DNA from: Sphingobacterium thalpophilum
GTDB lineage: Bacteria > Bacteroidota > Bacteroidia > Sphingobacteriales > Sphingobacteriaceae
Direction of reading: 5' to 3'
DNA: 64,000 bases
NCBI GenBank assembly: GCA_945868825.1
Contig: CAMBMM010000001.1
Location: 806,001-870,000, forward strand
Shown one piece after another: positions 1-1,815 of this stretch. A model generated the notes under the pieces. It saw only the letters and a list, made by a program, of their open reading frames with translations, had not been told where the DNA came from and did not search any database. The position numbers and the translations under genes are program-made. The stretch's first letter is position 1. Each line of letters opens with the position of its first letter.

Positions 1-1203
1 TAAATAAGGTTCATTTGTTTCATTGTCTAATGAGATAAAATCTAACTCATCGTAATCCGTATAATTGTACTTAATTGCATTTATGAATATATCTTTTATG
101 AACGGAACTTTATCTTGAGCCGAATAAATGAACATTTTATTCCTTGCTTTATCCATCTTAATATCTAAGTTGGTTTTATAATCTTGGTAACTTAGCTCTT
201 CTGTATTATATCGTTTCGAAAAAATATGATATATCTCATCAGTATATTTTGTATCACGTATTCTACCTATTATTTGAACTATTTGCATCTCTATATCTAA
301 AAGAGTATGCGTTCTTGCTCCGTCAGTAACTATGATAGTTCTACCTTCAGGGTCATAGATATCACATCCCTCAAATGCACTGCTGGTCAGGAAATTTATT
401 CGTTTAGGAATGTCTGAACTTTTAGACCTCTTTATTCCATTACTCAGGACTCTTTCACTGTGTCGAGAGTAGATAACCCTGGTGTTAGATTCATTTAAAT
501 CACACTCTTTAATAACCTTGTCAATTGTATCTAAACTATTGATAAAAATGTAGGCATTTCCTTCAATCTCGTTCTTTAAAAACTTGTTCACATTGTTTAT
601 GAGTGTAGCATTCAGTGATTTTTCAGCCATTACACCTATAATCTTTGGAAGTCTAAGATTTGTCCAGGAGGCTTCTACCATTTCAATCCCCTTTAGCTCA
701 GTAAATACGAAATCATCTGGAATTGGAGTTGCAGACATAAATGTATAAGACTTAAACTTCTTAAAATTCTTAAGTACAGTATTGCAGGCTGTTGACCTAT
801 AATCAAATGCAGTTAACAAACAATGGTATTCATCAATTAGTAAATTAAACTCTTTGGGGGTTAAACAAGACGTTAGCTTCATTAAACTATCATACGTGAC
901 CATAATCTTAGGAACTACAGCTCTCTTCAAATAGGATGTAACGTCTGAGGGTTTAAAGCCCGCGTAAATACCTAATATTTCATATGGGTAAGTATTTTTA
1001 TCCTTGTTAGATTGATTAATCTTATTGTCAATAAGCTCGGTTAGTGGTACGCATATAATAGTTGGTGAGCTGTCGGTAAGAGCAATTGTTGTTCCCCCAC
1101 ATCCAGTTTTGACTTTATTAAATATGCAGTCTTTAGGTAAGCCGTTCTTAAATTCTTCAACCTCTCCGAGATAAGAAAAATTGCCACAGTCAATTCTTTG
1201 CAT
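1..1203 (-). CDS. SF2 helicase-like protein, C-terminus cut by window edge
   Basis: An open frame of 401 codons reads from an ATG at 1203 to base 1 without a stop; a TAA directly precedes the ATG in frame, so the start is bounded. Superfamily 2 helicase motifs occur in the right order: a Walker-A-like TGCGGTT (res 33-39), motif Ia-like IICVPLTE (49-56), DEYH as motif II (124-127), SATP as motif III (157-160), FLTSSAFEGCDI as motif V (271-282) and QIIGRIRD as motif VI (310-317). The Walker A lacks the usual lysine (GCGGTT instead of GxGKT). The product presumably remodels nucleic acid; the substrate is unknown. Its AT-rich codon use differs from the core genes to the right. Lying beside a tRNA 3' end, it fits the edge of an integrated element. 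I cannot name the family. Confidence 0.72.
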   Translation of the reverse strand, partial: MQRIDCGNFSYLGEVEEFKNGLPKDCIFNKVKTGCGGTTIALTDSSPTIICVPLTELIDNKINQSNKDKNTYPYEILGIYAGFKPSDVTSYLKRAVVPKIMVTYDSLMKLTSCLTPKEFNLLIDEYHCLLTAFDYRSTACNTVLKNFKKFKSYTFMSATPIPDDFVFTELKGIEMVEASWTNLRLPKIIGVMAEKSLNATLINNVNKFLKNEIEGNAYIFINSLDTIDKVIKECDLNESNTRVIYSRHSERVLSNGIKRSKSSDIPKRINFLTSSAFEGCDIYDPEGRTIIVTDGARTHTLLDIEMQIVQIIGRIRDTKYTDEIYHIFSKRYNTEELSYQDYKTNLDIKMDKARNKMFIYSAQDKVPFIKDIFINAIKYNYTDYDELDFISLDNETNEPYL

Positions 1204-1321
1204 TTAGTATAAGCATTTAGGTTTTCTATTATACAGCTCAAAGCTGGGGTTACATTTTTTTAGCTTTTAGTATGTTATATACCCCAGAATCAAATTTTGT
1301 AACTAATTTTATTAGCATAAA

Positions 1322-1348
1322 TTTAGTATTTTAATATTAAATACTAAA
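1322..1348. repeat. 10-bp-arm inverted repeat upstream of helicase gene
   Basis: TTTAGTATTT (1322-1331) and AAATACTAAA (1339-1348) are perfect inverted arms around a 7-bp AT centre. The outer eight bases repeat as direct copies at 1203-1210 and 1266-1273, so the site may be a repressor operator or an iteron-like element for the minus-strand helicase gene. Position and symmetry are seen; function is inferred. Confidence 0.55.
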
Positions 1349-1700
1349 AATTTTACTATATAAGTTTTCCACAAGGCATAGTAAAATCTTAAATATTAGC
1401 TACTTACCCTATATATACAAATAATCAAAGAAAACTTGAGCTAATTATGGAATCTAAAGGTATTTAGCTCACAGAATCAGTTAAAATGAATTACTCTAAT
1501 AGCTAACAAACGCAAATCATTCTAAACAGAAATTATTAATAGTATTGATTTTGACCAAAGTTAATTCTAAAAGTGAGTCACTATATGAGTCAAATTTTAC
1601 TTAAATTAGTAGCTAATCAACCCAAGTGTTAACCAGACCCACTCGAGGGAGAAGTTCTTTAAAAAAGTAAGTAAAGGGAGAAAAAGGGATTAAAACCGCC

Positions 1701-1740
1701 TAAAACAACAAAACCCCAACCATTTCTGATTGAGGTTTTT
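1701..1740 (-). terminator. Intrinsic terminator of tRNA-Phe
   Basis: On the minus strand, arms 1730-1738 and 1711-1719 form a 9-bp stem with one G-T wobble around a 10-nt loop. A T-rich tract (TTTTGTTGTTTT) follows. It starts only a few bases past the tRNA 3' end, as expected for a monocistronic tRNA. Confidence 0.65.
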
Positions 1741-1742
1741 TG

Positions 1743-1815
1743 TGGTACCAGCTGGAATCGAACCAGCGACACAAGGATTTTCAGTCCTTTGCTCTACCAA
1801 CTGAGCTATGGTACC
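1743..1815 (-). tRNA. tRNA-Phe (anticodon GAA)
   Basis: The minus strand folds into a 73-nt cloverleaf: acceptor stem GGTACCA/TGGTACC with discriminator A, D-arm GCTC/GAGC, anticodon stem AAGGA/TCCTT with loop CTGAAAA, a 5-nt variable loop, and T-arm GCTGG-TTCGATT-CCAGC. The GAA anticodon gives phenylalanine. CCA is not encoded. The 3' end faces the AT-rich region on the left, the orientation usual for integration into the 3' end of a tRNA gene. Confidence 0.96.

Follow-up and report, generated by a model that had tools for sequence, protein, structure and literature searches.

A divergent SF2 helicase-like family of integrative elements, phages and plasmids that lacks the Walker A lysine and conserves a lysine upstream of it

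The window analysed here is a stretch of 64,000 nucleotides (G000:C1:806001-870000) from a Sphingobacterium thalpophilum genome of 1.66 Mb assembled in four contigs. Its left edge cuts a helicase-like gene, the first 401 codons of which fill positions 1-1203. An earlier note on this DNA had reported the frame without giving a strand and had called the gene truncated. The frame was confirmed, on the minus strand, and the truncation is an effect of the window edge only: extended leftwards in the assembly, the gene runs uninterrupted to G000:C1:805365 and encodes a product of 613 amino acids. The features of the gene and its surroundings are given below in window coordinates unless a contig or locus is named, with residues numbered as in the helicase-like protein.

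1..1203, minus strand: 5′ part of the SF2 helicase-like gene (401 of 613 codons), ATG at 1203
G000:C1:805365-806000, left of the window edge: 3′ part of the same gene (212 codons)
1114..1116, minus strand: codon of Lys30, invariant in the helicase family and the residue that may stand in for the Walker A Lys
1087..1107, minus strand: motif I (Walker A), TGCGGTT, residues 33-39, with Gly37 at the canonical Lys position
823..834, minus strand: motif II, DEYH, residues 124-127, with D and E invariant
724..735, minus strand: motif III, SATP, residues 157-160
256..276, minus strand: motif VI, QIIGRIR, residues 310-316, with Q, G and both R (nearly) invariant
1204..1707: AT-rich non-coding DNA that separates the start of the helicase gene from the right attachment site
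1708..1801: right copy (attachment site) of a 94-bp perfect direct repeat, overlapping the intact tRNA-Phe
1742..1815, minus strand: intact tRNA-Phe (GAA), the integration target
G000:C1:798458-798551 (L004:2458-2551): left copy of the 94-bp perfect direct repeat
L002:12620-13741: tyrosine integrase of the 9,250-bp element
L003:312-989: short N6-methyltransferase-like ORF
L003:961-2490: Eco57I-type methyltransferase
L003:2471-5032: T5orf172-helicase protein, 853 aa

The proposal that the gene belongs to a mobile element was borne out. The element spans 9,250 bp from repeat start to repeat start and has a GC content of 0.35, against about 0.41 outside. As is characteristic of tRNA-integrated tyrosine-integrase elements, the repeat lies in a tRNA gene, the integrase sits near one end and a relative retains the empty site: in the congener G446 the two flanks are 90% and 93% identical, with exactly one identical 94-bp copy between them. 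The search for adjacent integrase or defence genes that had been advised found both within the same element. Since the 853-aa protein and the Eco57I-type methyltransferase align to adjoining portions of a single PADLOC Type IIG model, the region L003:312-5032 (G000:C1:800312-805032) is suggestive of a split Type IIG-like restriction-modification module. The helicase-like gene lies on the strand opposite to these restriction-modification genes.

Motifs II, III and VI of the helicase-like protein occur in the order expected of an SF2 helicase, as originally described, and motif I indeed lacks its Lys. Pfam gave only a weak DEAD match that begins at residue 43, i.e. downstream of motif I; PHROGs, NCBIfam and PADLOC hold no family for the 613-aa protein, a profile search of PDB sequences with the helicase family returned no significant match, and the C-terminal region of about 210 aa matched no family. 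In order to place the altered loop in register, the family was compared by hhalign with nine ordinary SF2 helicases encoded in this genome, all of which have GK[ST] motif I loops. The alignment (probability 98.2, E 2e-13) sets Gly37 precisely against the Lys of their motif I, and none of the nine has a Lys at the position equivalent to Lys30.

AlphaFold models of the window's own 401 aa (mean pLDDT 87, pTM 0.80) and of a full-length relative of 578 aa (pLDDT 88) both show a core of two RecA domains. In these models residues 26-29 make up strand beta-1, the loop begins with Lys30, and Gly37, at the usual Lys site, is the first residue of the helix. The C-terminal 210 aa or so are modelled as helices that end in a helix-turn-helix/beta-hairpin-like part. 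The best Foldseek matches in the PDB are DbpA, eIF4A and BLM (E 5e-10 to 1e-7 for DEAD-box proteins and BLM), and the herpes simplex virus (HSV) origin-binding protein (OBP) is matched as well; BFVD gave many hits to viral proteins named as replication origin-binding proteins. With these DEAD-box and RecQ-type enzymes the family shares the two RecA-like domains and the ordered motifs II (DExx), III (SAT) and VI (QxxGRxR); it differs from them in the replaced motif I Lys, the additional invariant Lys30 and the unmatched C-terminal region. Because the Walker A GK[ST] lacks its Lys at the usual position, in all 81 family members described below, we file the family as a divergent SF2-like family and not as a canonical member.

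Homologues were collected by protein searches of genomes, phages and plasmids, by a profile search of 396 genomes and by scans of genome and viral contigs; the scan of viral contigs with a single-protein query gave no match, and the family alignment is too diverse to serve for pattern scans. A DNA-pattern scan supplied further loci; as the pattern itself imposes AAR at residue 30 and G/A at residue 37, these were excluded from the unbiased count. Among 84 aligned sequences, 81 have Lys30 without Lys37 and three have Lys37 without Lys30; none has both and none has neither. The three exceptions (L012, L130 and L135) are low-score catches of ordinary GKT helicases with A or V at position 30, and as L012 and L130 are one protein they amount to two distinct relatives. 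The search for homologues with an ordinary loop therefore found none within the family. Removal of the loci found by pattern leaves 62 rows with the same split, and filtering at 60% redundancy leaves 50 Lys30 rows against two Lys37 rows. It had been asked whether GCGGTT is conserved: the absence of Lys is kept throughout, but position 37 itself varies, being G in 53 members, A in 18, C in six, L in three and M in one. The family motif can be written K-x3-G-x-G-[GA]-T, in which Lys30 precedes the usual Lys site by seven residues.

The 81 members span Bacteroidota, Chlorobiota, Acinetobacter plasmids, prophages and phages, share about 30% identity and fall into deep, well separated branches of the family tree. 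At this distance Lys30 is conserved on par with the residues of motifs II, III and VI, while Lys61 and Lys99 follow closely at 92-99%. An independent route started from the island's integrase, which was searched in 121 genomes of the same family; of the 14 loci fetched, some cut by contig ends, seven hold the helicase, and all seven copies have Lys30 with G, A or M at position 37. G002 is one more such case that was already known. The Lys-less loop is a real family trait, due neither to chance nor to a frameshift or assembly error, and of the two possibilities first raised, a rebuilt ATP loop or another mode of nucleotide binding, the former agrees with all 81 aligned and seven independent members. 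Divergence is also seen within single contigs, as three viral contigs of 146-226 kb hold two divergent copies each (L083/L086, L096/L105 and L099/L102).

The Walker A lysine is regarded as the hallmark of P-loop ATPases, and its exchange for Ala as the standard inactivating mutation. In this family the ATPase site is apparently under strong selection, because the residues of motifs II, III and VI (D124, E125, A158, T159, Q310, G313, R314 and R316) are nearly invariant. With the other ATPase motifs (DE, SAT, QxxGRxR) kept in this way, the pattern is best explained by a lysine that has moved to another place in the loop. We put a probability of roughly 0.55 on the proteins being active SF2 helicase-like ATPases of a distinct and widespread family, with a relocated Walker A lysine, that belong to the backbone of their elements. 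Gly or Ala would then occupy the canonical Lys position, Lys30 at the loop start would bring positive charge to the phosphates, and the D-E pair of motif II and the arginines of motif VI would act in the usual way. It is quite likely that the enzymes hydrolyse ATP, and on balance Lys30 probably contacts the nucleotide.

In ATPases of other classes, upstream residues are known, or have been proposed, to replace or assist the P-loop Lys, and the present family would be an SF2 variant of this theme. In Mu gp28, L70 occupies the usual Lys site and K64 is proposed to complement it (PMC7363723), and in HK97 TerL the upstream Lys is K57 (PMC9410871); the Lys is thus missing in the former and supplemented in the latter by an upstream loop Lys. 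Phage terminases with an upstream Lys are cited as a precedent in the paper on the SAMD9 family, in which GG[TS] replaces GK[TS] and a conserved upstream His is the proposed substitute (PMC5445408). These systems differ from ours in class, SAMD9 being a STAND-type NTPase and not a helicase and the terminases Mu gp28 and, as a related case, HK97 TerL belonging to another ATPase class, and the substitute Lys of gp28 lies six residues before the usual site as opposed to seven here. By this analogy we infer that Lys30 would be the relocated lysine, at loop position 0, one residue before the substitute position of Mu gp28. That it falls one residue outside the gp28 position, and that Lys61 and Lys99 are nearly as conserved, weighs against this assignment. 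No report of a Lys at loop position 0 as a substitute was found in the open-licence literature examined.

One alternative is that catalysis has been lost, leaving a nucleotide-binding or nucleotide-free pseudo-helicase that serves as a DNA-binding scaffold. P-loop ATPases are usually inactive once the Walker A Lys is gone, and the authors of the SAMD9 study did not exclude the same for the GG[TS] loop (PMC5445408). We regard this as unlikely, as a scaffold would not need the near-invariant residues D124, E125, A158-T159, Q310, G313, R314 and R316, and a new invariant Lys has appeared within the very same loop. It is also rather unlikely that Lys61 at the end of the motif Ia segment, Lys99 or, acting in trans, a partner subunit provides the charge in place of Lys30. 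The conservation of the two lysines would allow it, and an arginine of motif Ia contacts the gamma-phosphate in HSV OBP (PMC12543377). Lys30, however, lies within the loop itself, the two ordinary GKT relatives lack it, and takeover by an upstream Lys has precedents in Mu gp28, the terminases and HK97. The Lys61 column moreover aligns near the end of motif Ia, which in SF2 helicases is usually a nucleic-acid contact.

The genomic context of the relatives indicates what kind of DNA the gene belongs to. Att-like repeats in tRNA genes bound six further loci, in which integrases lie close to the family helicase:

L057: repeat in tRNA-Phe, 12.2 kb, helicase-carrying
L139: repeat in tRNA-Thr, 6.5 kb, helicase-carrying
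L069: repeat in tRNA-Met, 10.9 kb, helicase-carrying
L136: repeat in tRNA-Lys, 11.0 kb, helicase-carrying
L143: repeat in tRNA-Ser, 10.5 kb, helicase-carrying
L144: repeat in tRNA-Ser, 12.1 kb, helicase-carrying, its repeat running off the edge of the locus

The helicase gene is probably a backbone part of tRNA-integrated tyrosine-integrase elements; its linkage to the integrase is shown by computation, as are the boundaries and empty site of the element. Defence genes are among the cargo of three helicase-carrying elements examined, and the cargo of L057 and L136 matches the PADLOC models PDC-S73 and NsnA/PD-T4-2_A. At L057:2840-5125 the cargo consists of an Mrr nuclease and an nSTAND3 protein (PADLOC candidate PDC-S73, E 7.5e-160). 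Phages carry the helicase too, as do prophages that have terminase and portal genes (L051), and on Acinetobacter plasmids it lies beside or near ParA. These plasmids are of two types (L017, L018 and L107), a phage-plasmid with terminase and portal genes and a MOBP plasmid, to which helicase and ParA are common.

The island's split Type IIG-like module and the defence-model cargo of two related elements could be taken to mean that the helicase itself acts in anti-phage defence or restriction, together with the island's methyltransferase and helicase genes. This we consider improbable: the protein matches no PADLOC model, its gene lies on the opposite strand, its relatives adjoin integrase, phage and plasmid genes but not consistently restriction genes, and the family is found in phages themselves. 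Membership of the helicase in the restriction-modification module was accordingly rejected on genomic context. A sequencing or assembly error, which had been named as a possibility for residues 33-39, or an isolated degenerate copy has a negligible probability and is refuted by the intact 613-aa frame and by the recurrence of this loop class in 81 aligned sequences, drawn from numerous independent records, and in seven others.

The best guess at what the active helicase-like ATPase does is that it binds or unwinds an origin and so opens or replicates the DNA of the element, although the odds are slightly against a replication role. The proposal was made because the predicted fold is OBP-like, a primase adjoins the gene at some loci, and some of the plasmids have no recognised Rep. 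At the Prevotellaceae loci L072, L073, L074 and L075 the helicase gene overlaps by about 6 bp a downstream gene with a BT4734-like_N domain, which we take to be a primase-type domain, and this overlap of a few bases suggests a helicase-primase pair. In the helicase-bearing Acinetobacter plasmids no annotated Rep was seen, and Rep_3 was absent in a search with a working control; searches for Replicase (PF03090) and Rep_1 (PF01446) matched no control genome and therefore have no bearing on absence. Element-borne replicative helicases have a precedent in Cch/Cch2 of SCCmec, which likewise lie beside a recombinase in an integrated element and are thought to replicate it after excision (PMC7581432). 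They are, however, MCM-like or SaPI-Rep-like proteins that accompany Ccr recombinases, whereas here an SF2 protein accompanies a tyrosine integrase.

The family shares with HSV UL9/OBP and giant-virus OBP the core fold and the arrangement of an SF2 core with a C-terminal extension, but the likeness of the core is that of SF2 cores generally and is not specific, no sequence-level family match to OBP was found, and HSV OBP retains the motif I Lys (K87; PMC12543377) that is missing here. Several observations speak against a role in replication. Three of the helicase-carrying phages also encode a DnaB-type helicase, some large viral contigs hold two family copies, and a search of the stretch at 1204..1707 beside the gene found no iteron array. 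A Rep-less lineage of Acinetobacter plasmids is also known to replicate via small peptides (PMC11142715). In its broadest form, in which the catalytic lysine has moved to the P-loop start and the active enzyme serves as initiator for tRNA-integrated defence-carrying elements, Rep-less plasmids and phages, the proposal is doubtful.

To our knowledge this is the first SF2 family in which an upstream residue would take the place of the P-loop Lys. We found no description of it in the open-licence papers searched, and the full-length family is in none of the profile libraries used. Annotation pipelines call its members ‘DEAD/DEAH box helicase’ or ‘hypothetical’, and Pfam matches them only past motif I. 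A large natural SF2 family with a perfectly reciprocal upstream Lys bears on which parts of the P-loop are truly required, a matter that can be tested by a two-residue swap. The family is also a marker for a class of integrative elements, of which some carry defence genes, and for some Acinetobacter plasmids without a recognised Rep. Two minor observations concern its members and neighbours: a DUF5131-like gene (radical-SAM-type CxxxCxxC) often adjoins the helicase, as at L021, L048, L065, L067, L071 and L074, and one member lies in an unusually long frame of 1013 aa (L021:4116-7154), possibly a fusion.
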